DNA of 40,224 bases from a virus. Made by a program: the position numbers and the translations under genes. How positions within the stretch are numbered: position 1 is the stretch's first letter; each line of letters begins with the position of its first letter. The stretch is from the IMG/VR virus record IMGVR_UViG_3300034198_019517, positions 1 through 40,224 of that record; one strand, given 5' to 3'. The notes under the pieces were generated by a model, which worked only from the letters and a program-made list of their open reading frames with translations, made no database searches and was not told the DNA's origin. Shown piece by piece: positions 3,774 to 27,700 of this stretch.

Positions 3774-3783
3774 TATAGTATAG

Positions 3784-5745: not shown

Positions 5746-5748
5746 CCA

Positions 5749-5895: not shown

Positions 5896-5928
5896 AATAG
5901 AAAGAAAAAATTCCGGAGAAATTTTTTT

Positions 5929-6123: not shown

Positions 6124-6149
6124 CAAGTTCATATATAGACTGTTAAAAT
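6120..6149 (+). promoter_or_regulatory. possible sigma70-type promoter TTGACA-18-TAAAAT
   Basis: TTGACA (6120-6125) overlaps the stop codon of the preceding gene, and TAAAAT (6144-6149) follows after 18 bp. It would give a leader of about 20 nt for the glycosyltransferase gene at 6175. Confidence 0.5.
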
Positions 6150-6174
6150 TGATATTGAAGGTTATTTTTTAACT

Positions 6175-7443: not shown

Positions 7444-8078
7444 ATGAATGGAATTCTATTCATAAGGATGATCTATGGGTATATAATAAACTCTTTCTAG
7501 CACACTCTCTAGGGCATCTGTGTGGTCCTGTAGGGACTCCTGTACCATCTCAAGACTATTATATCGTCCGACCAAGTATTAATTTACTTGGTATGGGACG
7601 ATTTTCTCGTATAGAATGGATTGATTATTGCACCGATCATTTTCATCCATCAGAATTTTGGTGCGAAATATTTCATGGGGAGCATATTAGTGTTGATTTT
7701 AATAACAAAAAAGCAGAACTTGTAGTTTTGGGGGATAGATATGACAATGATTCATTGTACAAATGGAAAAAATGGACTAAAATTGACAGAGATATTAAAT
7801 TTCCAACAATTTTAAATAATCTGAAGGGAAACTATGAGTGGATTAATTGTGAATTTATAGGAAATAATCTTATAGAAGTACATTTTCGCCAAAATCCAGA
7901 CTTTCGTTATGGGAATACTGTTGCAATTCCTGTTTGGAGAGGAGAAGAGAATGAAATAAAAAATCTTACCTTTGTTAAAGACGAAGACTACCTAAGAGAA
8001 GGTTTTTACATTGATACTCGGGATAGCAACCCCGTAAAAAGTTCTGATTTTAACAAATCAGGAGCAAAAAATGACTAA
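7422..8078 (+). CDS. conserved cyanophage protein, 218 aa, unknown function
   Basis: Conserved blocks are LFLAHSLGHLCGPVG (24-38), YYIVRPSINLLGMGRFSRIE (46-65) and HPSEFWCEIFHGEHISVDF (75-93). The pattern of YIVRP, a Gly-rich turn and E-x-F-x-G-E-x-I-x-V-D-F resembles ATP-grasp-like nucleotide binding, but the match is not strong enough for a firm call. No signal peptide or membrane segment is present. It precedes the baseplate operon and is tightly linked to both neighbours (22-bp and 8-bp overlaps). Confidence 0.65.
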   Translation: MYYTDPIDEWNSIHKDDLWVYNKLFLAHSLGHLCGPVGTPVPSQDYYIVRPSINLLGMGRFSRIEWIDYCTDHFHPSEFWCEIFHGEHISVDFNNKKAELVVLGDRYDNDSLYKWKKWTKIDRDIKFPTILNNLKGNYEWINCEFIGNNLIEVHFRQNPDFRYGNTVAIPVWRGEENEIKNLTFVKDEDYLREGFYIDTRDSNPVKSSDFNKSGAKND

Positions 8079-8328
8079 AAAAGTCGATAAAGATCAAAAT
8101 TTTATGAAAAATGAGTGGGGAACTCAATATTTGTCCAGTGAATATGGATGGGAGTCCCAAATTAATCAACAAAAAATGCTTAGGGAAATAGCAAATGACG
8201 AATTGACCCCCAAAAAACATGATTTTTTACATCAAAATGAAATTCATGCAAAAATTCGCAATGATGAAGACTATGATGACTGGGAATATGGTACAGAACC
8301 ACTTTATGAATTAAAAAATTGTGAATAA
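8071..8328 (+). CDS. conserved small acidic cyanophage protein, 85 aa
   Basis: Overlaps the preceding gene by 8 bp. The middle reads NEWGTQYLSSEYGWESQI, then KKHDFLHQNEIHAKIRNDED, and the protein ends in an acidic tail (DYDDWEYGTEPLYEL). It is hydrophilic with no transmembrane segment. I regard it as a conserved cyanophage protein of unknown function. Its stop lies inside a late promoter box. Confidence 0.65.
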   Translation: MTKKVDKDQNFMKNEWGTQYLSSEYGWESQINQQKMLREIANDELTPKKHDFLHQNEIHAKIRNDEDYDDWEYGTEPLYELKNCE

Positions 8329-8331
8329 ATA
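8324..8331 (+). promoter_or_regulatory. T4-type late promoter box AATAAATA
   Basis: Matches the (T/A)ATAAATA box used by T4-type late transcription (gp55/gp33/gp45 in T4). It lies 21 bp before ATG 8353 of gp25 and overlaps the end of the upstream gene. Confidence 0.7.
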
Positions 8332-8352
8332 AGTTTAGTTCTAACATAATTC

Positions 8353-8754
8353 ATGCCTTTAGAGAGGGTAAGTCAGGGTTTTAAAGACATTAGTATGACT
8401 TTTCAGTCTAATCCCCTGAACAGTGATCTTATTGCACTAAAAAATGAGACTGCTATTGCTCGCTCTATTAAAAACATCGTATTTACTCTTCCTGGAGAAA
8501 AGTTTTTTAACGAAAACTTTGGATCCAGTATTTCAAGGGTTCTTTTTGAAAATGTTGATGAAATTTCTGCATCTATTATTTCCGATGAAATTAGACAATC
8601 AATAATAAACTATGAACCGAGGGTTAGACTAATTGATGTTAAAATTTATCCAGATTATGATAACGGTTCTTTTGACGTAATAATCATATATGAAATCATA
8701 GGAGTGGACGTTGTTCCACAACAATTACAATTTGTATTGCAACCTACTAGGTAA
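8353..8754 (+). CDS. 25: baseplate wedge subunit gp25
   Basis: 133 aa, close to the 132 aa of T4 gp25, a component of the baseplate wedge with a lysozyme-like/GPW_gp25 fold. The N-terminal FKDISMTFQSNPLNSDL, the central FTLPGEKFFNENFGSSISR and the end VVPQQLQFVLQPTR are typical of cyanophage gp25. It is the first gene of the baseplate operon behind a late promoter box, and its stop directly abuts gp6. In the virion it forms the inner wedge core with gp6 and the gp7-position protein. Confidence 0.93.
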   Translation: MPLERVSQGFKDISMTFQSNPLNSDLIALKNETAIARSIKNIVFTLPGEKFFNENFGSSISRVLFENVDEISASIISDEIRQSIINYEPRVRLIDVKIYPDYDNGSFDVIIIYEIIGVDVVPQQLQFVLQPTR

Positions 8755-10680
8755 ATGCCATTAGTAAATTTTTCAAATCTGGATTTCGACCAGATTAAAA
8801 CAACACTCAAAGATTATTTAAAAGCGAATTCTAATTTTACTGATTATGATTTCGAAGGTTCAAACCTTTCGTCAATTCTTGATGTTTTGGCATATAATAC
8901 CTACATAACCTCATATAATGCAAATATGGTTGCAAATGAGGTTTTTATAGATAGTGCAACCCTCAGAGAAAATGTAGTTGCCCTTGCTAGAAATATTGGT
9001 TACGTACCAAGATCTAAAAAATCTGCATCAGCAACAATAAGTTTTTTTGTTGATACATCGAATATTTTTCCAAAGTTGTCATCCCTCACCTTAAAGAAAG
9101 GTATTGTAGCAGCATCATCGGGATCTTTTGGCAACCAATCCTTTGTTTTTTCAATATTGGATGATATTACAGTTCCAGTTTTTAATGGAATTGCAACATT
9201 TGATAATATAAATGTTTATGAAGGTATTGTTTTAACGAATAACTTTACATATTCTTCTAGAAATCCAAATCAAAGGTACATTTTACCAAATCCAGGAATA
9301 GATACGGATTTAATATCAGTAAGTGTCAAAAATAATGAGCAATCGTCAATAGTTCAGAAATATACCTTTCAAGATAGTCTTTTTGATGTTGATAAAGATT
9401 CTAGGGTATATTTTTTGCAAGAAATAGAAGATGAAAGATATGAAATTATTTTTGGTGATGGTGTATTTGGAAAAAAACTTGATGAGGGGAACTATGTAAT
9501 CACTAATTGCATTACTTCCAACGGCGATGGTGCAAATGGAGTTTCTCAGTTTACTTTTTCCGGAAAGTTAACATATACTAGAAATTCCATAGAATATACT
9601 GTATCGACAGGAATTTCTTTGATAACCACTATTTTACCTGCGTCTGGCGGTGAAAACATAGAATCAGTGGAATCAATAAAAAAGTATGCACCTAGAATAT
9701 ATGCCTCTCAAAATAGAGCTGTTACAGCAAATGATTTTGAAACTTTAATTCCTTCCAAAATTTATAAAGAAACTGAATCTATATCGGTTTTTGGTGGCGA
9801 AGATTTAATACCACCGCAATATGGAAAGGTTTTTATAAGCATTAAACCAAGATTTGGTGAGGTTATTCCAAATCTAATAAAAGATAATATTAAGTTAAAA
9901 CTAAAAAAATATATAGTGGCGGGCATAGTTCCCGAAATACTAGATCTTAAGTACCTTTATCTGGAGGTAAACTCTAAAGTCTATTATAATACAAACTTAT
10001 CACCATCTTCTGAATATGTATCGAGTATTGTTCAACAAAATGCACTGAAATATTCAGAGTCTACGGAGTTAAATCGATACGGAGCAAGATTTAAATATAG
10101 TAAATTTTTAAAGATAATAGATGATAGTCACGAATCAGTTACTTCAAATATAACAACGCTTCAGATGAGAAGAGATTTGAGAGTATCTTTAAATACTTAT
10201 GCCGAGTATCAAATTGGATTTGGAAATGAATTCCATATAAAAAATACAAATGGTTATAATATCAAAACATCTGGATTTAAAATCGATGGATTGACTCAAA
10301 CTGTTTACGTGGGAGATGTTCCCAATGCAGACAGAAATACAGGTTCTCTATTTTTATTCACTGTAGACTCCATAAATTCAACTTCTCCTACAATTTTAAG
10401 AAGAAGTGTTGGAAACATTGATTACGTGAACGGCATATTGACACTTAATCCTATTAATATTTTATCAGGAAAAATAAAAGATGGTCAAAGTATTATTGAA
10501 ATATCCGCTATTCCAAAATCAAATGATGTTGTGGGAAAACAGGACCTTTATTTGCAACTAGATATTAATAACAGTACTTTTGATATGGTTGTTGATGACA
10601 TTTCATCAGGACTAGATCCTTCAGCATCAAAATACATTACATCATCAAGTTATAACAACGGAAATCTAGTAAGATCATAA
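8755..10680 (+). CDS. 6: baseplate wedge subunit gp6
   Basis: 641 aa (T4 gp6 is 660). The N-terminus NLDFDQIKTTLKDYLKAN and the segment DVLAYNTYITSYNANMVANE followed by VALARNIGYVPRS are diagnostic of gp6/gpJ-family baseplate wedge proteins. IIFGDGVFGKKLDEGNYV (residues about 236-253) and NRAVTANDFETLIP are further conserved family blocks. gp6 dimers connect neighbouring wedges and form the inner ring of the baseplate. It begins at the base following the gp25 stop and ends 4 bp before the giant downstream gene. Confidence 0.93.
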   Translation: MPLVNFSNLDFDQIKTTLKDYLKANSNFTDYDFEGSNLSSILDVLAYNTYITSYNANMVANEVFIDSATLRENVVALARNIGYVPRSKKSASATISFFVDTSNIFPKLSSLTLKKGIVAASSGSFGNQSFVFSILDDITVPVFNGIATFDNINVYEGIVLTNNFTYSSRNPNQRYILPNPGIDTDLISVSVKNNEQSSIVQKYTFQDSLFDVDKDSRVYFLQEIEDERYEIIFGDGVFGKKLDEGNYVITNCITSNGDGANGVSQFTFSGKLTYTRNSIEYTVSTGISLITTILPASGGENIESVESIKKYAPRIYASQNRAVTANDFETLIPSKIYKETESISVFGGEDLIPPQYGKVFISIKPRFGEVIPNLIKDNIKLKLKKYIVAGIVPEILDLKYLYLEVNSKVYYNTNLSPSSEYVSSIVQQNALKYSESTELNRYGARFKYSKFLKIIDDSHESVTSNITTLQMRRDLRVSLNTYAEYQIGFGNEFHIKNTNGYNIKTSGFKIDGLTQTVYVGDVPNADRNTGSLFLFTVDSINSTSPTILRRSVGNIDYVNGILTLNPINILSGKIKDGQSIIEISAIPKSNDVVGKQDLYLQLDINNSTFDMVVDDISSGLDPSASKYITSSSYNNGNLVRS

Positions 10681-10684
10681 TAAA

Positions 10685-13600
10685 ATGACAGAAAAAAGAA
10701 TTCAAATCAAAGACATTGTAAATAATCAACTTCCACAATATGTGAAAGAAGATTATCCTCTTGTTGCAGAATTTCTTAAGCAGTATTATTTGTCTCAGGA
10801 ATTTCCGGGTGGACCTGCAGATTTAATACAGAACATTGATAGGTATGTGAAAGTAGATAGTACCACAGAATTGGTAGATTATGTTCTTCTACAATCCGAT
10901 ATTTCTATTATAGATGAAAATATATCAGTAGACTTTTTAAATTTTGAGCAAAATCAAATTGATTTTCCAGATAGTTATGGGTTAATATCAATAGATGATG
11001 AATTAATTTTATATGAAACCAAAACTTTAACCGGATTTGAAAAATGCCATAGAGGATTTAGTGGCACAATATCACATAAAAATGTAAATGTTGGAATAGC
11101 TTCTACTTATAGGCTTCGTCCTTCCGATGAATTAATTTTCAAAAAATCAGAAGCATCTTCTCACAAATCCGGCACAAAAATTTATAATTTAAGTTCTTTA
11201 TTTTTAAAGGAATTTTTACTCAAATTAAAATACCAATTAACGCCTGGATTTGAAAATAGAAGTTTTGTTGAAAAGGCAAATGAAGCTACTATTATTAAAC
11301 AAATAAAAGATTTTTATAGAAGTAAAGGTACAGATCAATCTTTTGAAATTTTATTTAGGTCTCTATATGGAGAAGATGTTGAAGTAGTACGTCCAAAAGA
11401 TTTTCTATTCAGACCATCAGATGCCCAGTATAAAATAACAAATGATTTTATTGTAGAAAAGATATCCGGTCCCATAGAAAAGATTAGTAATCTAACGTTA
11501 TTTCAAGATGAATATTTAAATATTTCAAAATCTTATGGCACTATAACTGAGCCTCTTGAAGAGATAGTTGCTGTTGATGGAAAAATATTTTATAAGTTAA
11601 AAATTGATGGTGGATATAATAGGGATCTCATATATAATGGTTCCACCTATGGAAATTTTTCAGTACATCCTAAAACCAGGGTTATTGGGAATTACAATAC
11701 ACAATCTACCGCAATAGATGTAGATTCTACCGTAGGTTTTCCAAATAAGGGAGAATTTTTAGTAAATTATGAAGATGGTACTCAGGGAGTAATTTCATAC
11801 AATTCTAAAAATTTAACTCAGTTTATTGACTGCACTAATATTGCAAAAAATATTTTAGACAATTCTATAATTTCTGTTAACACTTATGCATATGCTAATA
11901 CAGAAGATGGTGAGGAAATTAGAGTAAGAATTGTTTCTAGTTTGAATGATTTGGATATTCCGGATGATAATATTTTGTTTAGTGCAGAAGACACTATAAA
12001 AATAAAAACACTTGGTTTTGAAGACGGAGATGCAAGATTAAATTCATGGGTATTCAATTTACCAATCACTTATGATGTAGAGTCTTATAGTATATTCGAT
12101 AATTTTGATAATACTTATTCACTAACTTTAAAGGATAGTCACACTTTAAAGGTTGGTGATGCATTGCAAATTATTGATAACTTAGGTAATACGAAGCAAT
12201 CCATTATAATCGATGTAACTTCGGATAAAACCATTATTGTCAAGGGGCAAGGATTTTTATCAGAAAGTTTGTACAGAATAAAGAGGAATATTTTAAAAGG
12301 AAATTCGTCAAAATATTCATATATTGGAGAAACATCAACTGATATTCAAAATGTTTATACAAATAAAAACAATGATATATTAATCGCTTCTCCATCTGTT
12401 CCATATTATCCAAATAGTGCTTTAAATTTAAGCAATAGAACTATTTCTTTTTCCGGATCTTACGAAGTTGGATCCACAATCTTTAAATTAACTTCTTCCA
12501 CCGATCATGGATTTTATACGGGAGACTGCGTTTATTACACGCCAGAAAAAGAAACAATACAAACTACTGATATTGATGGAAATATAAGTTATTTTGAGAC
12601 AATAGCATCCTCTCTGTTTGATGAAGGAATTTATTTTATTAAAAGAATCGATAAAAATAATATTAAACTGTCAAAAAGTAAGTCGGATATCTTGTATGAG
12701 AAGTATGTATCCCCCGAAAATGACGTTGTAATTAATGGCAATAAAATAGAGTTTGCAGAATTTAAAGGGAAGGAGATAAAATCACAAAAATTATTAAGAG
12801 AAATTTCCAACCCAGTTATATCAGAAAAAAAAGAAAAAACAATTCCCGGATTTACTGGAATTTTAATTAATGGTACAGAAATTTTAAATTATAAATCAAA
12901 AGATAAAATTATTTTTGGACCTATAGAAAAAATTGATGTAGTTTCTGGAGGATCTGATTATGATGTAATAAATCCACCCAAATTAATAATCTCAGATTCT
13001 GTAGGAAGTGGAGCTACTGGACACTGTTCGGTTTCAGGATCTTTAAAAGAAATTCGCATATTGGATACGGGTTTTGATTATTTGGAAGACCCTATTGTAC
13101 AAATTACAGGTGGCAATGGAATTGGTGCAGTAGCCAAATGCAATACTAAATTAATTACACACAAATCAACATTTAATGCAGAAAAAGGTTCCGGTTTAGT
13201 TGGAATTGGTAGCACTATTTCCACTATCGGATTTTCTACCTATCATAAATTTAGAAAAGGAGAAGAAGTAATATACAAAACCAACTCCAATAAAGCAGTT
13301 GGAGGACTATCCACAGATTCTAAGTATTATATTTCCACAGTTTCCACAACAAAAATAAAACTACATAAGACATTAGGAGATTCTATTTCCGGAATAAACA
13401 CAATATCCCTGAGTGATTTTGGTATAGGAAATCATGAGTTTGAATCTGTAAATAAAAAAAGAATTTTGTCTTCTATAAGTGTAGAAAATTCTGGAAGTGG
13501 ATATCAAAATAAAAAAAGAACTGTTTCATATTCTGGTATCAACATTTCTTCAGATATAATAACAATAGAAAATCACGGTTTTCTTTCTGGAGAAATAATA

Positions 13601-16600
13601 AACTACACCACAACAGGAACGGTTATTGGTGGACTGGTAAAAAATAGAAATTATTATGTATTAAGAATAGACGATAATCAATTTAGACTCTGTGAGATAG
13701 GAACTGGTAGTTATACACAAGATTATTTTTATAAAACAGGTCAATTTATAAATTTAACTTCAAGAAATTCTAATGTTCACGTATTCAACTATCCAAACAT
13801 TGAAGTTGAAATAGTAGGATCTGTTGGATTATCCTCAAACTACAAAGCAAGAATTGATCCTATTTTTAGAGGAGAAATTACATCATTCCATTTAGAATTA
13901 AAAGGTTCTTCATATGGAGTTGAAGAAGTCTTTAATATAGAAAGACATCCATCATTTAGTATTTTATCCGGTTCTGGTTCAGAATTTGATTTAATAGTTT
14001 CAAATGGACGTATACAAAAAGTTCTTATTAATTCTGTAGGACAAAATTATACATGTTCTCCAGATTTAATCGTAGTTGGGGATGGAACTGGTGCGGTATT
14101 GTCTCCAGTAGTTTTAAATAATCAAATTATCGACGTTAAAGTTATTGAACCTGGTGCTGGATATTCTGCAGACAATACAAGGATAATTGCTTCTCATCCG
14201 GGAAGTGGTGCTAAATTTACTTCCAAAATTAAAAATTGGACTGTAAATTTATTTGCAAAATACCTAGGTATATTTACAGAAGATGATGGTTGCTTAAGTC
14301 CTGGGTTAAATTCAGAATATGAACTTGAATATTGCCATTTATATGCCCCAAGAAAATTAAGACAAGTTTTATATTCTAGGGATCAATCAGGAAAAATTTT
14401 ATTTTCAAATCCAGATTTAAAATTTTCTAGAAACAAAGAAATAAAATCAAAAGATCATTCTCCAGTTATTGGATGGTCTTATGATGGGCATCCAATTTAT
14501 GGACCATACGGTTATTCTAAAAAATCCGGTGGAGTTGTCTCCCAAATAAAAAGTGGATATAAATTGATTTTAGATCAAAATAGACCATCTACAAATTATT
14601 TCCCATCTGGTTTTTTCATTGAAGATTTTAAATATCAAAAATCAAATGATGAAGCAGTATTGGACGAAAATAACGGAAGATTTTGCATAACTCCCGAGTT
14701 TCCAAATGGCACTTATGCTTATTTTTCAACGTTTGAGGAACTGTCCGTAGATTCATCAGGACCATTTAAGAGTTATTATAGACCAAAATTCCCGTATTTA
14801 ATAGGTAATTCATATAATTCAAAACCAAATGATTTTAATTTCAAGAAAAAATCCAATCAAGATTCTATAGATCTTAATCAGAATGATTGGGTTAGAAATA
14901 CTTATGCCTATAACCTAACAAAAACTAATTCAAGATATGAATATGTAACTTTACCCAATAATTTAAATCAATCTATAGATGTTGTCGGAGTTTCTCCCGG
15001 TTCAATCGATAGTATTGGAATATCTACTGGTGGAGATAGTTATAAAGTAAATGACAAATTGATATTTAATAATATAGATTTTGATGGGAAATCTAGAACT
15101 TTTGGAAGTTCTGCATCTGCAGTTGTTTCGGGATTGGCTGGAAAATCGATTTCTACAGTAAGTACTGCAAGTACTTATTTCTACGATGTTTCAATATACC
15201 CATCAAATAAAAAAGGAGAGTATATTTTATACAATAATTCCCCCCACAATATTGCAGATTATGATTTAGTCGCAATATCTGGATTAAATACTACTTCAAA
15301 CATAATTAAAGGCAATTATACATCAAGAGTTACAACGAATAGATTAGTTTTAGTTGGTTTGGGAACTACAACGGTAGGAATTGCTTCTGCAAATATAACC
15401 GGAATAGTTACTTACATATCAGTTAGGGGGAACTTAGATTTTCCAAATATAAGAGAAAATGATATTTTTAGAATTGATAGTGAAAAAATAAAAATTCTAA
15501 ACATTGATAAAAAATCTTCAAGATTAAGAATCTTGAGAGAAGTTGATGGAACTATTGGATTATCTCATAGTATTACTACGCTCTTATATGAGGATTCGAG
15601 AAAGTTATTCTTAAACGTTCCCAAAGAAAATGATATAACAAATTATAGTTCATATTTAAAAAATAAACAGATTTATTTTAATCCAAAGGAATCTTTGGGT
15701 ATAGGAACTAATAGTAAAGTTGGTATAGGAACAACGATTTATTTTTCTAATCCAGGGACTGGTTCAACACAAGTATTCATACCACTCAGAACAATTTATT
15801 TACCAGAACATGGATTAACCACAGGAGATTTGTTAACTTATGAGGTTAATAGTGGAAGTCCTATTGTTGTTTCATCTACAGGAATAGGAACTACAACTTT
15901 ATCCAACAGTTCGTCATTATACGTTGCAAAAATAAATGAGGATTTAATTGGCATTTCTACAGTACAAGTTGGTTTAGGAAGCACCGGATTCTTCACTGGC
16001 ATAACAACGTCTACAAAAAATATTGGATTGTTATTTTTTACTGGAATAGGCACAGGAACTTATCACAGTTTTAAAACAAATTATCCAGAAGTTACTGGTG
16101 ATTTATCAAAACATGTTGTCACAGTCTCTACTGCACAGACTCATGGATTAACAGTAGATGATATAGTTGATGTGGCGGTGAGTGCATCCTCTACAACTAT
16201 TACTATAAAATATAATGATTCCAATAGAAGGATTATAGTAAATCCAAGGGATTTTATTGGAGCAAATGTAAGCACATCAAATAACACAATTACTATTTCA
16301 AATCATGGATATATTAATGGGCAACGAGTGATTCATACTTCCATCTCTCCTTCAGGAGGATTAGTCAATAATGGAATGTATTATGTCGTTTCAATTAATA
16401 AAGATATTATTAAACTTTCAAATTCTTATTATGATTCTACTATTGAAAGACCAAACACTATTGATATTACAAGTGCTTCAAATGGCACTATATCCCCAAT
16501 AAACCCACCAATAGATCTTTATAGAAATTCTATTGTAATATTTGATTTATCCGATTCTTCACTTTCATACACCAATAATTCCAAAACATATTCGGCTTTT

Positions 16601-19600
16601 AATTTCGAAATATATTCTGACGGACAATTCGAAAAAGTCTTTGATTCTGACCAAAAAGATAATAGTTTCAATGTCCAAAGAACAGGAAAAGTTGGAACTT
16701 CTGGTGCCACATTAACACTAAAAATTGATGAATTTTTACAAAGTACTTTGTACTACGATTTAGTTCCATTAGATTCTACTGGTCTTTTCTTACCCGAACA
16801 GAAGAAAGAAATTGTAAGAGATGTTATTGTTAATTCATATAATCAACTTAGAATAAAAAATAGCATTTATAATGGCACATATAAAATAAGAGTTTCTACA
16901 CCAAATTCTTTCGAATATTTTCTTCCAAGTGAACCAGAAGTTCAATCATATACATCTGGAATTTCAACTACATCCACATTATCATCAGATTTAACATATA
17001 CCACAAACTCATTATCAGCTATAGGTCCAATTTCCAATATAAAAATTACAAATAAAGGAACAAATTATTATTCATTACCTGCAATAACTTCAGTGAGTTC
17101 TTTAAGTGGTAATGGATGTATATTAAATGCAGAGAGCAATACAATAGGTAAAATTAAAAAAATAAAAATAGTAGATGGTGGTTTTGATTTTACCTCAGAT
17201 AAAACTTTAAGACCATATACATCATTCCCCAAAAATATAAAAATCGATAATTTGTTTTCCATTGATAATATTGGAATATCTTCTCAGGGAAGAGGATATA
17301 CAACGGCACCAAAACTTGTAGTTTTGGATGGAAAAACTAAAAAAGTAATACCATCAGATTTAAACTACAACCTTGGCGATAACCTAGTAACTATTAAATT
17401 AAATGCTAATGGTTTAACCGATTCTATCCCAACCATAATCCCCACACAAAACTCAAACGGCATAGGAATAACTGACATTACATATAATCAATCCACTAAA
17501 GAAGCAAAAGTTTATTTACCATTTTCTTTTAGTGATATTGGCGACTTTGATGCTAATACATATCCAATTAGAGTCAATGATAGAGTTTTGATCGAAAACA
17601 TTAGTGTAGGTGTGAATTCTACTTCTAAGGGATTTAATTCTTCAGATTATAATTATTCACTATTTACAATAACAAATATAGATGTAAATGTGGGTGGAGT
17701 TAGTGCAGTAACTTATAGTTTAGATGGTTATCTATCAGAATCAGAGTCTCCCGGAAAATATGATCCAGTAAATTCATCTGGAAGAATAATTGCCGAAAGA
17801 AATTTTCCAATATTTAATCCATCAATTAAACAAGATCAATATAAAAAAGGCGAAACTGTAAGGTCCAATAACTCGTTTGGAATTGTTGAAAACTGGGATC
17901 CAATTACTAGATATTTAAAAATATCGTCAAAAGATAATTTTAAAAATAATAGTATTGTTGAGGGATTGTCTTCAAAGACAATAGGAACTGCATCATCAGT
18001 AACTAATTTAAATTCTTATGCCAAAACTGAGTTTTCAATTAAAGTTGAGGGTGGATGGGAGTCTAATGCAGGATTTTTGAACGATAATGTACAGAGAATT
18101 CAAGATAGTTTATATTATCAAAATTTCTCATATTCATTAAAATCAAAAATTGATTATGATACTTGGAGTGATGCAGTTAGTGCTTTAAATCACTCGGTTG
18201 GGTTTAGAAAATACTCTGATTTCCAAATGGAATCTAAACTAGACAATGATTTTAGTAATTTGTTTGTAGGTCTTTCCACAGATACAACCGCTACTGACGT
18301 AAAAGTAGAAATGACTAGTTATGGCGATTTGAATTGTGTAACTGATTTTGATTTGGCAAAAGAAAATTATTTAAATATAAACTCAAAAGTTGCGAGCAAT
18401 AAAATATATTTTGATAACAAACCACTCACTGATTATTATGAGGCAAGAGGAAATAGAGTCTTACTAATAGATGATATTAGTTCTAAATTTAATAGTGGTG
18501 AAAGACCAGAAAAATATTCTGACGTTTATAAGTTTAATATTAACACGACTAGGTCTCTAAAGTTTCTTTCATATATCAGAGATAAGAAATTTACTGGTCA
18601 AAGGCAGGTGATGCTGACATCTATTATTCATAATGGTTCATATGGTGTCATAAATCAGTACGGAAGAGTTGAAACTGCATATGATTTGGGTTCTTTTGAT
18701 TTTGTAATAGATCAACCATTCGGAATCGTTCGTTTCTATCCTACAAGATATACCATTAATAACTATGACGTTGCATTATTATCATATAATTTAGACGATG
18801 CTTTTACTGGAGTTGGAACAACAACAATTGGTTCAATTGTTACAATAGATACAAATAGCATAATTTCTTCTGCCTCTACAATAAATGTTGTCAGTTTGGC
18901 AACCACATACACTTCAGCTAAAATTTTAGTTCAGATATACAGGGATAGTTTAAATTATCAATTTAATGAAATAAATGTAGTTCATGATGGAACCAATATA
19001 GATTTTATAGATTATGGGGAATTGAGAACAAATACAAGAACTTCATATTCATCCACAGGATATGGGACATATTATCCTTATATTTCCGGCGGAAATTTAA
19101 ATATAGACTTTATACCCAATGTCTCTATTGGCAATTCTTTTTACATAAACACCACCAATGTTTCTTTGGGTGATACAAATTCATCTGGAATTGGAACTAT
19201 TGAATTAGAATATGGAGAAATAAGAGCAAATAGTGTTTCTATATCAAGTTCTCCAACACCAACTGAATCAACAATTTTAAGTTTTACATCGGAACATGAT
19301 TGTGCATATTGCCTGGTTCAAGTTTCTGATATTACAAATAATCGTCATGCTTTTTCAGAAGTTATTTTGATAGTTGATGATGTAACTTCAGAACCCCTAA
19401 TAACAGAATATGGAAATGTTCAAACTTTTGCCGGTCTTGGTACAATTGGTGCGTCAGTATCTGGAATTGGATCTACAACACAACTTTTATTTACACCTTT
19501 ACCAAACATTCAGGTCCAAGTAAAAGTATACGCCAATTTACTTGGACTTGAAGGTAACAATATAGAATCATATCAGGTAGGTAATCTAGATGTGAGTTCT

Positions 19601-22600
19601 CAATATGGTTCTTACAGTGGCACTGAGGTTGACCAAGTAAGAACATTTAATTTAACTCACAAGGGTTATCCTATTTTTGAAAGATATTTTTCAGGATCCG
19701 ATTCTTCCATTGTAGATTTATCAAGAAATACTATAAAAATTCCATCTCATTTTTACTCAACTGGAGAAAAAATAACATATAATTCTAACTTTGGAAATCC
19801 AATAGGAATAGCAACAACTACTATTGCAGGAATAGGATCTACGGATAAACTCCCAAGCACATTATATGTTGTAAATTTAAACAACAATAAAATTAGAGTT
19901 GCAGCTTCTGCTTCTGAAGCATTAAGACCAATCCCCAATGTATTAAATTTAACTTCACTTGGAAGTGGAACTCGACACAAATTTTTAGCTCAGAATAAAA
20001 ATTCCAGAGTGGTAGTTGCTATTGATAATATTGTCCAATCACCGATAGTAGCAACCGGACTAACTGCATCGTTGACATCTGCAGTATTTTTAACTGATGA
20101 AAGTATTGTATTAAACGATTCAACATCTTTCTATGGTGGAGATTTAATAGAAATCAACGATGAGGTTATGCGTGTCAGTTCTATTCAAAAAAATAATGTA
20201 ATTACTGTTAGAAGATCTTGGATGGGAACAGATATTGCAAACCATTCTGTAGGTTCATTAGTCAATAAGGTAGTTGGGTCTTACAATATCGTTGATAATA
20301 ATCTGAGTTTTGCGGCTGCACCCTATGGAAATGTTCCACAAACATATTCAACAAGTCCCCCAGACGAACAAGATTGGGTTGGAATATCGACAGGTTCTAG
20401 TTTTTCCGGTAGATGTTTTATGAGATCTGGAATACAAGGTTCATCAAATGACACTTATTCCAAAAATTATATTTTTGATGATATAGCAACAGGATTTAAT
20501 GGAATAACCTCAACTTTTACATTAAGATCTTCCCAATCAAATATTACGGGAATTTCTGAGGAGGGGGCCCTAGTATTAATTAATGATATAGTTCAAGCAA
20601 GAGGTTTATCTGGTGATTTAGAGAATGCAAGAAATGGTGTAAATTTCACTCTTTCGGAAACAAGTGGAATAACATCTATTACTTTTATAGGGTCAGCATC
20701 TTCTGTTCCAAATTCCTCAGGACTGCCAAAGGGCGGTACTATAGTTTCTGTTGGATCTACAGAAGGTCTTGGATATCAACCTTTAGTTTCCGCTGGTGGT
20801 ACTGCAATTGTTTCTTTGGCAGGAACAATTCAATCAATTTCAATAGGAAACACTGGTTCTGGATATAGAGCAAGTTCTTATTATGACATTCCAACAAGTA
20901 TTTCGTCAATAGTTGGTGTAGGTTCAACTACGATTTTCATTAAGAATGAAAATAGTATTTTTGGATTACTAAACTTACTTAATACTGGTTCAAATTGCTC
21001 TATTGGAGTTGGTACATTTATCTTCTCTACAAATATAGTGTCTGTAGGATCATCTTTTGTGAGAATTGGTACAGGAAGTACAAGTTCTAAGCAAATACCA
21101 GTTGGAACTCCAGTAAATATTAAAATTTCAAATCCACAAGTCGGAATAGTAAATGTTGGAATTTCTAGCACTTCTTCAGAAAACTCTGCAGTAACTCATA
21201 TTGGATTTACTACGGTTATAAGAGGAAAAATTTCAGAATCTGTTACGATAACAAAAGTCTCCACTGGATATACGAGAACAAATCCCCCAGAAGTTATACT
21301 TGATGATCCCCTATCATACTCGGATGTTCCTTTAGTTTATAGTTCATCTTCTATTTCTGGAGTTGGAACAGCAGCTTCAATTGATATAGTTGTTGGGCAA
21401 GGATCTAGTATCATTGATTTTGAGATAAAAAACACCGGATACAATTATAGAGCAGGTCAAACATTAACTGTACCTATAGGGGGACTAACGGGCATCCCAA
21501 CAACATCTTCATTCAAAGAGTTCCAAATATCAATACAAGAAGTTTTTGATGACACATTTACAGGGTGGGCTTTTGGGGAACTACAAATACTTGATGAAAT
21601 TTCTGATTTGTTTGATGGTGAAAGAGTTTCATTTCCACTCAAATATTTTGGAGAATTGATTTCAATTAGATCTGCAAGAGGTTCTAACATCAATCCCCAG
21701 GAATTGCTACTAGTCTTTATAAATGATGTTTTACAAGAACCAGGAAAAGGTTACATTTTTAATGGTGGCAGTAACATCTTCTTTACGGAACCACCAAAAC
21801 CACCCGTTTTAGAAATTCCAAATACAGGTGATTCTTGCAAAATATTATTCTACAAAGGGACTGCTTCTGTTGATGTTGTTTACAAAAACATACTAGAAAC
21901 AGTTAAACCTGGAGATGGACTAACAATAGGATTTGATTCCACCCTAAATCAATCATATGGTCTTCAAGAAGATGAAAGAGTCGTTGATGCAATTTTGGCA
22001 TCAGACTTAGTATCAACAAATCCATATTATGGACCAGGAAATACCAAAGATGAAACATTAACTAGACCAATTACTTGGTGCAGACAAACTGAAGATAAGA
22101 TTATTGATGAACAAGAAGTTTCAAAAGATAGGATGTTATATGAACCAATTATTAATCCATCAGCATATTTAATAAGATCTGTTGGAATAGGTTCTACTAT
22201 AATCTTTGTTGACAATTTAAAACCCATTTTTAATCCGGTTAATGAGAACAAATCCACAATTCCAGCATTCCAAGATGAATTTTTAAATTTCCAAAAACAA
22301 ATAACATTTATTCCACAAGAAACGAAAAGAAATGCGTTTGCCACTGCGGTTGTTTCTGTAGCGGGTACAATAAGTTCTATAGCAATTTCTACAGGGGGAT
22401 TTGGATATCTTTCAGTTCCTGATGTTGTTATCCAAAATCCAATTGGGTTTGGAACTACATGTAGGGCAGAAGCAACTGCTTCCATTTCTTCCGGAATTGT
22501 TACATCAATAACAATAACAGGTCCTGGAACAGAATATTCCCAGGTTAATCCACCCATTGTTTTAATTTCTCCACCATCATTTGAGTCTGAAACTAATACT

Positions 22601-23161
22601 GTTACTCAATATGAAGGAGATTTTGGAATTATTTCCGGAATTTCAACAACTTCAGTTGGTGTTGCTTCTACTGGTATTGTTTTTGATTTTGCTATACCAA
22701 ATGATTCCATTCTTAGGGTTGTTGGTATTGCATCAACTTCAATGACTGGAGTAACTACAATTAGTGGTATACAAACTGGTTATTATTTTGCAGTATATAA
22801 TTCTAGAGTTGGTAATGGAGTGACCTCTTTAGATGAAAACAGGCAGATTATTGGTATAGGGACTACTGGATTAAATAACATTTATAGGGTTGCAAGCGTT
22901 TCATTGGCACAAACTGCAGTACCAGGATTGGGAGTAACCTATGTTGCCAGAGTTACTGTTAGTGTATCTAGATATAATGGTTTAAGTGGACTAGGACACA
23001 GTTCTTTGTTTGCAGAATATAGTTGGGGTAAAATTACATTAAAAACCAGAACAAAAGACAATGAATATAACTCCTATACAAGGTCCGGTTTTTCTGGAAT
23101 ATCGACTGGAACTATGATAATGAGAACTAACCCCCTCAAATATTATAACTATGGTATATGA
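10685..23161 (+). CDS. giant baseplate protein in the gp7 position, 4158 aa
   Basis: An uninterrupted 12.5-kb frame between gp6 and gp8, where T4 has gp7 (1032 aa). Domains: an N-terminal wedge-type region with QYVKEDYPLVAEFLKQYY (19-36) and FYRSKGTDQSFEILFRSLYG (211-230); Gly/Tyr beta-repeats near 750-820; a YHYH-like domain (about 1200-1375) with SYDGHPIYGPYGY at 1265-1277; further repeats near 2200, 3380, 3525 and 3895-3960; and LLLVFINDVLQEPG near 3670, a motif seen in cyanophage tail proteins. The rest is beta-rich and full of GIGTTT/STVGIGS stretches. The N-terminus likely initiates the wedge as gp7 does, while the C-terminal two thirds may be peripheral, possibly host-facing. The gp7 equivalence rests mainly on position. 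No signal peptide or membrane segment is seen. Confidence 0.75.
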   Translation: MTEKRIQIKDIVNNQLPQYVKEDYPLVAEFLKQYYLSQEFPGGPADLIQNIDRYVKVDSTTELVDYVLLQSDISIIDENISVDFLNFEQNQIDFPDSYGLISIDDELILYETKTLTGFEKCHRGFSGTISHKNVNVGIASTYRLRPSDELIFKKSEASSHKSGTKIYNLSSLFLKEFLLKLKYQLTPGFENRSFVEKANEATIIKQIKDFYRSKGTDQSFEILFRSLYGEDVEVVRPKDFLFRPSDAQYKITNDFIVEKISGPIEKISNLTLFQDEYLNISKSYGTITEPLEEIVAVDGKIFYKLKIDGGYNRDLIYNGSTYGNFSVHPKTRVIGNYNTQSTAIDVDSTVGFPNKGEFLVNYEDGTQGVISYNSKNLTQFIDCTNIAKNILDNSIISVNTYAYANTEDGEEIRVRIVSSLNDLDIPDDNILFSAEDTIKIKTLGFEDGDARLNSWVFNLPITYDVESYSIFDNFDNTYSLTLKDSHTLKVGDALQIIDNLGNTKQSIIIDVTSDKTIIVKGQGFLSESLYRIKRNILKGNSSKYSYIGETSTDIQNVYTNKNNDILIASPSVPYYPNSALNLSNRTISFSGSYEVGSTIFKLTSSTDHGFYTGDCVYYTPEKETIQTTDIDGNISYFETIASSLFDEGIYFIKRIDKNNIKLSKSKSDILYEKYVSPENDVVINGNKIEFAEFKGKEIKSQKLLREISNPVISEKKEKTIPGFTGILINGTEILNYKSKDKIIFGPIEKIDVVSGGSDYDVINPPKLIISDSVGSGATGHCSVSGSLKEIRILDTGFDYLEDPIVQITGGNGIGAVAKCNTKLITHKSTFNAEKGSGLVGIGSTISTIGFSTYHKFRKGEEVIYKTNSNKAVGGLSTDSKYYISTVSTTKIKLHKTLGDSISGINTISLSDFGIGNHEFESVNKKRILSSISVENSGSGYQNKKRTVSYSGINISSDIITIENHGFLSGEIINYTTTGTVIGGLVKNRNYYVLRIDDNQFRLCEIGTGSYTQDYFYKTGQFINLTSRNSNVHVFNYPNIEVEIVGSVGLSSNYKARIDPIFRGEITSFHLELKGSSYGVEEVFNIERHPSFSILSGSGSEFDLIVSNGRIQKVLINSVGQNYTCSPDLIVVGDGTGAVLSPVVLNNQIIDVKVIEPGAGYSADNTRIIASHPGSGAKFTSKIKNWTVNLFAKYLGIFTEDDGCLSPGLNSEYELEYCHLYAPRKLRQVLYSRDQSGKILFSNPDLKFSRNKEIKSKDHSPVIGWSYDGHPIYGPYGYSKKSGGVVSQIKSGYKLILDQNRPSTNYFPSGFFIEDFKYQKSNDEAVLDENNGRFCITPEFPNGTYAYFSTFEELSVDSSGPFKSYYRPKFPYLIGNSYNSKPNDFNFKKKSNQDSIDLNQNDWVRNTYAYNLTKTNSRYEYVTLPNNLNQSIDVVGVSPGSIDSIGISTGGDSYKVNDKLIFNNIDFDGKSRTFGSSASAVVSGLAGKSISTVSTASTYFYDVSIYPSNKKGEYILYNNSPHNIADYDLVAISGLNTTSNIIKGNYTSRVTTNRLVLVGLGTTTVGIASANITGIVTYISVRGNLDFPNIRENDIFRIDSEKIKILNIDKKSSRLRILREVDGTIGLSHSITTLLYEDSRKLFLNVPKENDITNYSSYLKNKQIYFNPKESLGIGTNSKVGIGTTIYFSNPGTGSTQVFIPLRTIYLPEHGLTTGDLLTYEVNSGSPIVVSSTGIGTTTLSNSSSLYVAKINEDLIGISTVQVGLGSTGFFTGITTSTKNIGLLFFTGIGTGTYHSFKTNYPEVTGDLSKHVVTVSTAQTHGLTVDDIVDVAVSASSTTITIKYNDSNRRIIVNPRDFIGANVSTSNNTITISNHGYINGQRVIHTSISPSGGLVNNGMYYVVSINKDIIKLSNSYYDSTIERPNTIDITSASNGTISPINPPIDLYRNSIVIFDLSDSSLSYTNNSKTYSAFNFEIYSDGQFEKVFDSDQKDNSFNVQRTGKVGTSGATLTLKIDEFLQSTLYYDLVPLDSTGLFLPEQKKEIVRDVIVNSYNQLRIKNSIYNGTYKIRVSTPNSFEYFLPSEPEVQSYTSGISTTSTLSSDLTYTTNSLSAIGPISNIKITNKGTNYYSLPAITSVSSLSGNGCILNAESNTIGKIKKIKIVDGGFDFTSDKTLRPYTSFPKNIKIDNLFSIDNIGISSQGRGYTTAPKLVVLDGKTKKVIPSDLNYNLGDNLVTIKLNANGLTDSIPTIIPTQNSNGIGITDITYNQSTKEAKVYLPFSFSDIGDFDANTYPIRVNDRVLIENISVGVNSTSKGFNSSDYNYSLFTITNIDVNVGGVSAVTYSLDGYLSESESPGKYDPVNSSGRIIAERNFPIFNPSIKQDQYKKGETVRSNNSFGIVENWDPITRYLKISSKDNFKNNSIVEGLSSKTIGTASSVTNLNSYAKTEFSIKVEGGWESNAGFLNDNVQRIQDSLYYQNFSYSLKSKIDYDTWSDAVSALNHSVGFRKYSDFQMESKLDNDFSNLFVGLSTDTTATDVKVEMTSYGDLNCVTDFDLAKENYLNINSKVASNKIYFDNKPLTDYYEARGNRVLLIDDISSKFNSGERPEKYSDVYKFNINTTRSLKFLSYIRDKKFTGQRQVMLTSIIHNGSYGVINQYGRVETAYDLGSFDFVIDQPFGIVRFYPTRYTINNYDVALLSYNLDDAFTGVGTTTIGSIVTIDTNSIISSASTINVVSLATTYTSAKILVQIYRDSLNYQFNEINVVHDGTNIDFIDYGELRTNTRTSYSSTGYGTYYPYISGGNLNIDFIPNVSIGNSFYINTTNVSLGDTNSSGIGTIELEYGEIRANSVSISSSPTPTESTILSFTSEHDCAYCLVQVSDITNNRHAFSEVILIVDDVTSEPLITEYGNVQTFAGLGTIGASVSGIGSTTQLLFTPLPNIQVQVKVYANLLGLEGNNIESYQVGNLDVSSQYGSYSGTEVDQVRTFNLTHKGYPIFERYFSGSDSSIVDLSRNTIKIPSHFYSTGEKITYNSNFGNPIGIATTTIAGIGSTDKLPSTLYVVNLNNNKIRVAASASEALRPIPNVLNLTSLGSGTRHKFLAQNKNSRVVVAIDNIVQSPIVATGLTASLTSAVFLTDESIVLNDSTSFYGGDLIEINDEVMRVSSIQKNNVITVRRSWMGTDIANHSVGSLVNKVVGSYNIVDNNLSFAAAPYGNVPQTYSTSPPDEQDWVGISTGSSFSGRCFMRSGIQGSSNDTYSKNYIFDDIATGFNGITSTFTLRSSQSNITGISEEGALVLINDIVQARGLSGDLENARNGVNFTLSETSGITSITFIGSASSVPNSSGLPKGGTIVSVGSTEGLGYQPLVSAGGTAIVSLAGTIQSISIGNTGSGYRASSYYDIPTSISSIVGVGSTTIFIKNENSIFGLLNLLNTGSNCSIGVGTFIFSTNIVSVGSSFVRIGTGSTSSKQIPVGTPVNIKISNPQVGIVNVGISSTSSENSAVTHIGFTTVIRGKISESVTITKVSTGYTRTNPPEVILDDPLSYSDVPLVYSSSSISGVGTAASIDIVVGQGSSIIDFEIKNTGYNYRAGQTLTVPIGGLTGIPTTSSFKEFQISIQEVFDDTFTGWAFGELQILDEISDLFDGERVSFPLKYFGELISIRSARGSNINPQELLLVFINDVLQEPGKGYIFNGGSNIFFTEPPKPPVLEIPNTGDSCKILFYKGTASVDVVYKNILETVKPGDGLTIGFDSTLNQSYGLQEDERVVDAILASDLVSTNPYYGPGNTKDETLTRPITWCRQTEDKIIDEQEVSKDRMLYEPIINPSAYLIRSVGIGSTIIFVDNLKPIFNPVNENKSTIPAFQDEFLNFQKQITFIPQETKRNAFATAVVSVAGTISSIAISTGGFGYLSVPDVVIQNPIGFGTTCRAEATASISSGIVTSITITGPGTEYSQVNPPIVLISPPSFESETNTVTQYEGDFGIISGISTTSVGVASTGIVFDFAIPNDSILRVVGIASTSMTGVTTISGIQTGYYFAVYNSRVGNGVTSLDENRQIIGIGTTGLNNIYRVASVSLAQTAVPGLGVTYVARVTVSVSRYNGLSGLGHSSLFAEYSWGKITLKTRTKDNEYNSYTRSGFSGISTGTMIMRTNPLKYYNYGI

Positions 23162-23188: not shown

Positions 23189-24736
23189 ATGTCCGCAATT
23201 GTAACTGATCAACTTAGAATATTAAATGCTAAGAATTTCGTAGAGAAAGTTTCCTCAGAACAGAATTCATATTATGCATTCATTGGATTACCAAATCCAT
23301 ATGATTACCAAACAGATTGGGATGAGTCTCCACCTGTTCCTAAGGATAATTTTACCCAAGAAGATGATTATTGGGACACAATGATTGCTCTGAAAAAAAT
23401 AAATTCTGATGATATTCGTCAAGTTGTTCCAAAGAGGGTTTGGACTTCCGGAACAATTTATGATATGTATAGGCATGATTATAGTAGAACAAATATATCT
23501 AAAGTTTCTGGAGCAACTAATCTATACTCTTCTTCTTATTTTGTAATTAATAGCGAGTATCGAGTTTATATTTGTTTGAATAACAATTCAAATCCAGACA
23601 CCCCAGGTGGTGGACCATCATTGGATGAACCTCTTTTTACTGACTTGGAACCGAGAGCAGCTGGAGATAGTGGAGATGGATATATTTGGAAATATCTCTA
23701 TACAACAAAACCTGTAGATGTTATAAAATTTGAAACCTCCGATTTTATCCCCGTTCCAAAAAATTGGTCAACATCTGCAGATTCTACATTGATAAGAAAC
23801 AATGCGGTGGATGGTTCTATAAAGACTGTAATAATTACAAATAGAGGAAGTGGACTTGGGGAGGCAAATACTTATCTTAATGTTCCAATTAGAGGAAATG
23901 GCACTGGATCTACATGCACAATTGTGGTTGATGAGAATGGTGAGGTAAGTACAATAACCGTTTCAAATCAAGGTCTTGGATATACATTTGGCAGTGTTGA
24001 TTTATCTGGAGGAAATTTCCCGACAGGCGACACACTTCCATCTTTTGATGTCATCATTTCCCCAAAAGGTGGTCATGGTTACGACATTTATAGGGAGCTT
24101 GGTGCATTTAATGTCTTAACATACTCCAGAATTGAAAATGATAATGAAAACCCAGATTTTATTACTGGAAATCAAATTGCTAGAATTGGAATAGTAGAAA
24201 ATCCAGAAGTAACTACGGGTACTATTTTAACCTCGGACAAAGCCAGTTCCGTTTACGCCATAAGGTTGACAGGAATTGGATATAGTAGTTCAAATTTTGC
24301 ATATGATTCTTATATAACACAGACTATATCTACCGGAACAACTGCTGTCGGTAGAGTTGTTAGTTATAATTCAACAACTGGTGTTTTAAAATATTGGCAA
24401 GATAGAAATTTATCTGGTTTTAATACCGTAGGAACTGCACAAACTAATCCAACTTATGGATTTAGTCTTAATAAATTTACAAGTTCCCCATCTACTGGGG
24501 GAAATTTAGTTATATCTGGAAACTCTGGTGGAACTTTATCTATAGATACAACCTTTACAGGCATATCTACTACAATAAATAATAGAACATATTACCTAGG
24601 ACAAACTTTTACAAATGGAATTTCCTCTCCAGAAGTAAAAAAATATTCCGGAAATATTATCTACGTTGATAATAGACCGGCAATAACTAGATCATCAAAT
24701 CAAAAAGAAGATATTAAAGTCATTTTGCAGTTTTAA
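23189..24736 (+). CDS. 8: baseplate wedge subunit gp8
   Basis: 515 aa, longer than T4 gp8 (334). The first 200 residues carry the gp8 signature: SEQNSYYAFIGLPNPY (24-39), TSGTIYDMYRHDYS (91-104), YRVYICLNNNSNPDTPGGG (124-142) and GYIWKYLYTTKPVDVIKF (163-180). From about 210 to 270 lies a Gly/Tyr beta-repeat (VIITNRGSGLGEA, ITVSNQGLGYTFG) also found in other structural proteins here. The C-terminal half is beta-rich. gp8 forms part of the outer wedge together with gp7 and gp10 in T4. It is preceded by tandem late boxes. Confidence 0.9.
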   Translation: MSAIVTDQLRILNAKNFVEKVSSEQNSYYAFIGLPNPYDYQTDWDESPPVPKDNFTQEDDYWDTMIALKKINSDDIRQVVPKRVWTSGTIYDMYRHDYSRTNISKVSGATNLYSSSYFVINSEYRVYICLNNNSNPDTPGGGPSLDEPLFTDLEPRAAGDSGDGYIWKYLYTTKPVDVIKFETSDFIPVPKNWSTSADSTLIRNNAVDGSIKTVIITNRGSGLGEANTYLNVPIRGNGTGSTCTIVVDENGEVSTITVSNQGLGYTFGSVDLSGGNFPTGDTLPSFDVIISPKGGHGYDIYRELGAFNVLTYSRIENDNENPDFITGNQIARIGIVENPEVTTGTILTSDKASSVYAIRLTGIGYSSSNFAYDSYITQTISTGTTAVGRVVSYNSTTGVLKYWQDRNLSGFNTVGTAQTNPTYGFSLNKFTSSPSTGGNLVISGNSGGTLSIDTTFTGISTTINNRTYYLGQTFTNGISSPEVKKYSGNIIYVDNRPAITRSSNQKEDIKVILQF

Positions 24737-24742: not shown

Positions 24743-27700
24743 ATGTCTCAGAAAACTAACCTAAACGTAGCACCATATTTTGATGACTTTAATCCAAATA
24801 ATGATTACCATAGGGTTCTTTTTAAACCCGGATATCCAGTTCAAGCCAGAGAATTAACCACTCTCCAATCAATATTACAAAATCAAATTGAAAAATTTGG
24901 TCAACATTTTTTCAAAGAAGGTGCAAAAGTAATACCCGGAAATACTGGATATAGTCAATTGTACTACTGTGTACAATTGGAAAATAATTATCTAGGAGTG
25001 CCAGTTGCTGCATATATTGATCAACTTATTGGTGCAAAAATAACCGGACAAACATCAGGTGTTACTGCTGTAGTTGATAAAGTATTATTGCCGCAGGACT
25101 CAGAAAGAGGAAATCTTACCTTATACATAAACTATTTGAGTTCTAGTACTCAAAATAATTCCACTCAACAATTTTCTGACGGAGAGTTATTAACTTCAAA
25201 TATCATAATTGCATCAGGTCTTCTCGGAAATACTTCTATTGCAGTAGGAGAACCTTTTGCTTCAACAATTTCTACTAATAATTCTGCTGTAGGATCGAGT
25301 TTTAATATTTCGGAAGGTGTTTATTTTATAAGAGGTCAGTTTGTCAATGTAAAAACTGAGACTTTAATACTCGATCAATATACGAATAAACCAAACTATA
25401 GAGTTGGTCTCTATGTTGATGAACAAATAGTAAATTCTAATACAGACGAAACCCTGAATGATAACTCTCAGGGATTTAATAATTATGCTGCTCCAGGAGC
25501 AGATAGGTTAAAAATATCGACATATTTGTTCAAAAAATCATTAACAGATTTTGATGATGGCAATTTTGTGGAACTTGCCACTATTGTTGATGGCAACCTT
25601 CGTTCAAAGACAGAAGATGATAAGTATGCGTTTTTGAGAGATGAATTGGCAAGAAGAACTTATGCAGAATCAGGAGATTATCTAGTTTCTCCATTTGACG
25701 TTTCTCTAAAAGAATCTTTAAATAATCAAAAAGGAAATGATGGAATATATAATAAAAATCAAATTACCTTTGGTGGAGAAACTCCGAGTGAAAGTAAAGG
25801 GGTTTATAAAATATCTCCAGGAAAAGCATTCGTTAGGGGTTATGAGATAGAAACAATCTCTACTACATTTTTAGATGTAAATAAGACAAGAACAACACAG
25901 ACTTTAGAAAACCAATCGATAGCATATAATACTGGTTCAACTTTAAAACTAAACCGAATTTATGGTTCTGCTCCTGTTGGTTTAGGAAATACTTTTGTTT
26001 TGAGTTTAAGAGATGAGAGGGTAAATTCTTCAGGTGCAGTAAGTTCTGGAAAGGAAATAGGTCTTGCTAGAGTTTATGATTTTTGGTTAAACTCTGGTTC
26101 GTATAGTGCATCAAATTCGAATTTAAATGAATGGAATATTTCATTATTTGATATTCAAACTTTTACAAATATCACTTTAAATAATCCCGTCACTATCTCA
26201 ACTCCAACTTTCATCAAAGGAAATAATAGTGGAGCAACAGCATTTTTAAAGGATAGTGTTACTGTAGGCACAGCTTTGACTCTATATGATGTAAAAGGCA
26301 CTTTCATTCCATTTGAATCATTTTCTTTTGATGGAATTGATTCTGGGTTAGTTGGAATTTCAGTCACAACATATGGCATCTCCGATGTAAAATCAGTTTA
26401 CGGCAAAGTAAGTGCAGCATCTACTTTTTCTGCAGATACCATACAATCAATTGGTTTTGGTGTTGGGATTGCCTCAATAAGTGTGGTATCAAGTGGAATA
26501 AGCACAGTAAGAAGTGCTAGCAATCTTTTTCCCGGTAATATTGTTAAAGTTGGGAATTTAGTTAGGTACTCGGATACAACAAAAATTGTTCCAGTTGTAG
26601 CAAAAGTAATAGGTGTAGGAGCATCAACCATTTCTATAATTGGCGTAACCTCAGTAAGTGGAATAGTAGACGGATCTTTACCAACATCTCCTTTAAATGT
26701 AACTGATTTTGCTGTTCTTAAAACAGATTTAGAAAAATCATCGGATAATACGTTATACACAAAACTTCCAAAAAATAATATATCCAATGTTGATGTCTCA
26801 AATTCCACACTCATTGTAAGAAAAATATTTACTGTTAATATTTCTAGTAACAAACTTTCTGCACTAGTAACCTCTGGTACAAATGAGACTTTCTTACCCT
26901 TTACAGAAAAAAGATATTCTTTAGTTAGATCTGATGGAACTACTGAGGTTTTAACTTCGGACAAATTTGAATTTACTTCAGGTGGAACAGAATTACAAAT
27001 TTATAATCTTGGTTCTAATAATACAAATGCCACTTTGGTGACAACTTTACAAAAAATAAAACCAAAAGCAAAGGTTAAGAGAAAAAATAGAGTAAATTCT
27101 ATACTTATTTCAAATTCAAAGTATGAAGGTTCTGGGATTGGGGGAACTACTTTAAATGATGGATTAGTATATGGCAACTATCCCTATGGAACTAGAGTTC
27201 AAGATGAAAATATATGCCTGAATCTTCCTGACATTGTAGAAATTCATGGCATTTATGAATCAGAAGATACATCAAATCCTTCGGCACCCAAAGCAGTTCT
27301 TGCTTCTATTACTAGTTCATCTTCCACTACTTCAGAATTAATAGTTGGAGAAGAAATTTCTGGAACAACTAGTGGTGCTATATCTATTGTTGCTGAAAAA
27401 TTAACTTCATCACAAATATCTCTAATATATAAAAATCAAAATAGATTTAATGAAGGAGAGACAATTACTTTCTCTGAGTCAAACATCCAAGCACAAATAT
27501 TAACTTTAGATGACCCAAGTTTTGACATCTCATTCAATTATACCTTTAACAGAGGTCAAACTGGAAGTTTTTATGATTATGGATATTTGATTAGAAAAAG
27601 TAATACAAATGAACCATCTAAAAAACTAAAAGTATACTTTTCTAATGGATATTATGAGTCAACTGATGATGGCGATATTACAACTGTAAATTCATATAAT

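Follow-up and report, generated by a model that had tools for sequence, protein, structure and literature searches.

A giant gp7-family baseplate wedge protein with a conserved core in two pieces in a marine T4-like cyanophage

The stretch of DNA analysed here, 40,224 nucleotides long and called the window below, is a 40-kb IMG/VR virus record (IMGVR_UViG_3300034198_019517) of a T4-like cyanophage; among named viruses, Synechococcus phages and single-cell marine viruses are nearest to it at the DNA level. Genes for gp25 (positions 8353–8754), gp6, a giant protein, gp8, a VrlC/DUF4815 protein (24743–32194), gp13, gp14, gp15 and terminase lie in the window (Table 1). Flanked by gp6 and gp8, the giant open reading frame has the position of T4 gp7. 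It is a single intact 12.5-kb frame in that position, as the initial annotation had stated: it runs from ATG to stop, encodes 4158 amino acids without any internal stop codon, and occupies 12,477 of the 40,224 bases (31%). The encoded protein matched PHROG 2885, a profile of 4179 positions labelled 'baseplate wedge subunit', with 3518 bits, far beyond chance, residues 1–3413 being the best of two matching stretches. The G+C content is ~0.35–0.45 in the small-gene region (1–7000), 0.28–0.32 across gp6 and most of gp7 (8000–20000) and 0.32–0.35 thereafter. Elsewhere in the window, a 255-residue open reading frame (6175–6942) belongs to PHROG 1574 (unknown function), has a weak glycosyltransferase match and shows 76–78% DNA identity in S-CAM9 and SynMITS9220M01; a 595-residue protein with DUF5661 and DUF6321 (36395–38182; strong AT skew, 0.22–0.25) is encoded between the genes for the small and the large terminase.

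Table 1. Positions of gp7, its parts and its flanking genes in the window (res, residues of the giant protein)
Feature	Position	Strand	Basis
gp6 baseplate wedge protein, upstream neighbour	8755..10680	+	profile match
gp7-family baseplate wedge protein, 4158 aa	10685..23161	+	ORF, PHROG 2885, intact homologues, selection
Core part a (res 1-65), helical	10685..10879	+	profile segments; helices 8-60 in low-confidence model
~90-aa beta insert within core (res ~66-155)	10880..11149	+	profile segments, model
Anchor 1 (res 201-308), homologous to T4 gp7 725-814	11285..11608	+	profile searches, hhalign
Giant insertion between gp7 anchors (res ~309-2481)	11609..18127	+	anchor alignments, hhalign
Module B copy 1 (res 606-668)	12500..12688	+	repeat search
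Module A pair (res 749-781, 789-819)	12929..13141	+	repeat search
Module B copy 2 (res 846-900)	13220..13384	+	repeat search
Module B copy 3 (res 955-1009)	13547..13711	+	repeat search
Module A pair (res 1113-1141, 1150-1179), just N-terminal of YHYH domain	14021..14221	+	repeat search
YHYH-family domain (res 1218-1385; PF14240 at 1251-1350), YAYF subgroup; H1218, H1258, D1267 kept	14336..14839	+	Pfam, alignments
Module B copy 4 (res 1702-1761)	15788..15967	+	repeat search
Module B copy 5 (res 1865-1918)	16277..16438	+	repeat search
Module A copies (res 2119-2149, 2159-2174, 2198-2215)	17039..17329	+	repeat search
Anchor 2 (res 2445-2618); motif res ~2482-2511 homologous to T4 gp7 864-893	18017..18538	+	profiles, hhalign
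Separable C-terminal unit (res ~2965-4158)	19577..23158	+	own gene in B23, largely so in S-SSM7
Module B copy 6 (res 3013-3079)	19721..19921	+	repeat search
Length-variable site (res ~3396-3530)	20870..21274	+	comparison with P-SSM2, S-SSM7
Module A pair (res 3898-3928, 3941-3964)	22376..22576	+	repeat search
gp8 baseplate wedge protein, downstream neighbour	23189..24736	+	profile match

When residues 1–320 were made into a profile and compared with the PDB, the only significant matches were T4-type gp7 proteins (9f4a, E 4.9e-6; 5hx2, E 2.5e-5), and hhalign, with the C-terminal parts of seven T4-type gp7s as the target profile, aligned window residues 201–308 (anchor 1) with T4 residues 725–814 at a probability of 97%. 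These results rule out an N-terminus unrelated to gp7 and bear out the wedge-like character previously suggested for it. The counterpart of anchor 1 sits in the C-terminal part of T4 gp7, and the T4 N-terminal domains (residues 1 to about 700) had no significant match in the window protein by profile, phmmer or targeted comparisons. Because anchor 1 is likewise preceded by just ~84 residues in the gp7 proteins of Caulobacter phage Cr30 and Sinorhizobium phage phiN3, those domains do not define the family. Plain phmmer searches of the PDB with the first 700 residues and with the whole protein gave no match. An AlphaFold model of residues 1–470 was weak (pLDDT 67.7, pTM 0.41), and a Foldseek search with it did not retrieve T4 gp7 and returned no meaningful hits; neither this model nor a similarly weak one of residues 1173–1431, nor the fold searches made with them, were used as evidence. 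In Cr30 gp7, the profile segments show core part a running directly into part b. At the equivalent of the window's short beta insert, inside the N-terminal core, S-RIM2, ACG-2014d and S-MbCM100 carry an insert of ~500 amino acids.

A BLAST comparison of the whole protein with Cr30 gp7 gave a second match, between window residues 2453–2523 and Cr30 residues 668–737. A profile of this region (anchor 2, window residues 2445–2618) was present in all those gp7s of the set that contain anchor 1, and in Cr30 and phiN3, the smallest gp7s found, it lies near the C-terminus. Since the anchor-2 profile retrieved nothing from the whole PDB at E values up to 10, we made targeted comparisons, and it is from these and from matches to Pfam PF23786 that the link to T4 comes. 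The profile scored 10.8 bits against T4 gp7 864–888, as compared with 5.0 bits or less in 2,000 shuffles, the two sharing the motif I-K-S...W...V...H-P-x-G-F; in agreement with this, hhalign gave E 1.4e-5 and a probability of 80%. In Pfam PF23786, several of whose matches in relatives are below the curated cut-off, anchors 1 and 2 occupy adjoining positions (161–221 and 230–284). Both anchors, in the same order, were found in 20 of the 20 tabulated gp7s, spaced by 105 residues in T4, 579 in Cr30, 838 in phiN3 and 1,610–2,855 in cyanophages. As anchor 2 also matches T4 gp7, the protein is to be read as a wedge core split by an insertion, rather than as a plain wedge N-terminus followed by a fibre tail. 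By these comparisons, the conserved gp7 core of the window protein is present but split in two pieces. The initial annotation, which had described a wedge N-terminus with a fibre-like rest, was right in that the rest contains repeated small modules, but the second gp7 anchor lies within that rest.

If the count starts where the wider hhalign match ends (window residue 308, T4 residue 814), the insertion is about 2,170 residues long, versus about 50 in T4. Expressed as residues before anchor 1, between the anchor motifs and after anchor 2, the layout is 724/105/144 in T4, 84/579/45 in Cr30, 83/838/26 in phiN3, 202/2246/1651 in the window, 193/2245/1659 in S-SM2, 189/2267/2680 in P-SSM2, 690/2745/2884 in S-RIM2 and 700/2855/3203 in ACG-2014d. 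T4 gp7 (1032 residues, the length correctly given in the earlier reading; PDB 5hx2 and 5iv5) thus has the same anchor order and the same gp6–gp8 slot as the window protein but carries its extra mass on the N-terminal side, whereas that of the window protein lies between and after the anchors. The gp7 proteins of Cr30 and phiN3 resemble the window protein in having both anchors, with anchor 1 near the N-terminus; they differ from it in lacking a YHYH-family domain, which was looked for in both, and module B, and in having almost no C-terminal extension. In cultured Kyanoviridae (S-SM2, Bellamy, SynMITS9220M01, P-TIM68 and P-SSM2; PHROG 2885), gp7 has the same position, modules and YHYH domain as in the window. 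The nearest of these are 45–46% identical to the window protein in amino acid sequence, those of S-SM2 and Bellamy are collinear with it over practically the whole length, and the differences in length within the cultured group lie mainly in the C-terminal unit.

The repeated modules are of two short types, A (consensus EIDILNPGFGYDSIPPILTISGGNGSGATLTP) and B (consensus STNTITITNHGFKTGDKVIYSTTSGTPIGGLSTNSSYYVKKVDDNTIKLSKSRSDA). Module A had 11 matches in gp7 and four in gp14 at a relaxed cut-off, and module B is present in six copies in gp7. The gp14 neck protein (33468–34883; 471 residues) consists of a T4 neck domain at residues 2–186 and an extension with the four module A copies.

The C-terminal unit can be encoded separately. 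In phage B23 (13998–25777), the gp7 chain is divided between two genes, of 2845 and 1081 amino acids, which overlap by four bases (ATGA) at the position corresponding to window residues ~2955–2965; in S-SSM7 (2562–21656), it is divided between genes of 3007 and 3001 amino acids, with a gp9/10-like gene between them. The C-terminal ~1,200 residues are therefore separable, and the fusion that had been proposed for the giant protein fits this part of it; the two-part wedge/fibre anatomy that went with the proposal does not hold for a split core. At the length-variable site within the unit, P-SSM2 and S-SSM7 have about 1,110 and about 1,770 residues, respectively. Such large inserts, the separate genes, the repeated modules and the presence between gp8 and gp13 of larger window proteins that have no gp10–gp12 family match would all suit a wedge fused to a receptor-binding protein, in which the C-terminal unit, the insertion or both serve host recognition and partly replace the short tail fibres. 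The selection profile points the other way. Three other IMG/VR contigs carry homologues with 87–90% amino acid identity to the window protein, against which the overall dN/dS (omega) was 0.116–0.122; in 200-residue windows of gp7 it ranged from 0.03 to 0.23 among these close relatives, with no window above 0.23. Purifying selection thus acts uniformly, and the close relatives show no hypervariable tip. Furthermore, Pfam searches with the C-terminal unit, the P-SSM2 insert and the second S-SSM7 protein gave nothing over the curated cut-off, and no recognised fibre or receptor-binding domain of Pfam was found in gp7. The possibly receptor-binding parts mentioned in the initial annotation are therefore not supported, and we regard a receptor-binding fusion as rather unlikely.

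The YHYH-family domain lies in the giant insertion and was found in all examined cyanophage gp7s having anchor 1. In the window it matched PF14240 with E 4.5e-24 and 85.9 bits, against a Pfam cut-off of 25 (90.5 bits in a second search). YHYH domains are predicted zinc-dependent hydrolases (PMC7824862), and in the domain alignment positions H46, H86 and D95 vary hardly or not at all, as might be expected if the baseplate used a metal-dependent hydrolase to cut the host envelope. However, YAYF takes the place of the eponymous motif in the window protein, in 58 of the 60 phage copies and in many bacterial relatives (of 120 bacterial frames caught by the pattern DG-x-PIYGP, a few of them unrelated proteins, 44 have YAYF and 19 YHYH), and the N-side histidine is missing from several gp7s. 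The YHYH profile had no match in the PDB, and a fold search with the weak model of the domain region gave nothing meaningful. Bacterial PF14240 proteins share with the gp7 copies the HSPxxGWxxDGxPIYGP core and the NGR-xTPEFPxGxYAYF block; they include a true YHYH subgroup, whereas in gp7 the domain is of the YAYF subgroup. Since the YHYH histidines have been lost, though two histidines and an aspartate persist, the sequences suggest that catalysis is unlikely and that a binding or structural role is more likely; an enzyme-armed baseplate accordingly seems quite improbable.

The initial annotation had expected the possible fusion to give an unusual baseplate; by a length comparison across cyanophages, the protein is not unusual for its group. 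The undivided gp7 genes of Kyanoviridae examined encode 3,328–6,817 amino acids, a range in which 4158 is ordinary. By annotated coordinates, the gp7-slot proteins have 767 residues in Cr30, 1006 in phiN3, 3328 in S-RIM44, 3654 in Sf-FR1, 3884 in S-CAM9, 4225 in ACG-2014f, 4307 in P-TIM68, 5195 in P-SSM2, 6064 in S-MbCM100, 6378 in S-RIM2 and 6817 in ACG-2014d. Seventeen IMG/VR relatives with long gp7 frames have 3,955–4,684 residues, two shorter frames apart from these being cut by the contig end or broken. On contig IMGVR_UViG_3300020220_000072, the gp7 frame breaks within anchor 2 (~10170–10787), and a further anchor-2 piece follows in another frame with a TAA; an identical gp7 frame of 2606 amino acids occurs on a second contig from another assembly, and both an error and a real split are possible. 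Homologues have been found in virions by mass spectrometry, namely the 6619-residue gp7 'baseplate wedge initiator' of S-SZBM1 (71 peptides; PMC9146016) and the 1937-residue gp7-slot protein of S-CREM2 (91 unique peptides; PMC10665884), data that speak for presence in the virion and not for a location within it. An artefactual joining of several genes into one frame, in whose favour we found nothing but the split-gene versions of B23 and S-SSM7, has practically no chance of being correct and is excluded by the same undivided gene in independent assemblies, three contigs (4158, 4160 and 4164 amino acids) and three cultured phages whose gp7s are collinear end to end with that of the window (S-SM2, 4156 amino acids; Bellamy, 4067; SynMITS9220M01, 4067). 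The giant gp7 is a known, long-annotated family (PHROG 2885) and no surprise for marine T4-like cyanophages.

It has been reported that gp7 is absent from such phages and apparently substituted by VrlC (PMC7029224). The VrlC-type protein of the window (2483 residues) matches DUF4815 (PF16075) and a solved relative (PDB 9euf, 'ORF65'; E 6.7e-45), which rules it out as the gp7 counterpart. Because the window encodes both gp7 and VrlC, and VrlC is a different protein, the replacement of gp7 by VrlC is not supported.

In T4, gp7 is a monomer present in six copies, which together with gp8 provides the platform for gp6, and domains of gp7 are bound by gp9 and gp10 (PMC3004832). The gp7 identity of the window protein and the homology of its anchors follow from the sequence comparisons; the reunion of its core, its arms and the roles of these are inferred from T4. 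We consider it probable that a marine T4-like cyanophage has here its gp7 wedge protein, whose split core reunites and whose insertion and C-terminal unit form arms of the outer baseplate. The two anchors would come together, as in T4, into a single wedge core for the docking of gp6 and gp8, the giant insertion would leave the wedge as a long arm, and the C-terminal unit would form a second peripheral appendage. Arm and appendage would build the outer baseplate and the fibre-docking zone, work that in T4 is spread over the N-terminal domains of gp7 and gp9–gp12; direct contact of the gp7 arms with the host is possible. As the literature searched yielded no cryo-EM structure of a baseplate from the marine T4-like cyanophages (cyanomyoviruses), the geometry of the arms is a matter of inference. 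In a bolder form, which we think unlikely, the wedge protein would itself be the outer baseplate, its arm of ~2,170 residues, whose YHYH-family domain would bind but not catalyse, and its fused C-terminal appendage together taking over fibre docking and host contact from gp9–gp12.

The protein, its gp7 name and its size class were already known, and the modestly new element is the architecture of the split gp7 core, of which a partial literature search found no description. Giant gp7s, usually labelled just 'baseplate wedge' or 'structural protein', rank with the largest proteins of ocean phages that are very abundant. A two-piece core, its parts 105 to 2,855 residues from each other across phages, offers a concrete frame for reading these gp7s; for structural biologists, the predicted wedge would be residues 201–308 with 2445–2618, and the predicted arms the insertion and the C-terminal unit.
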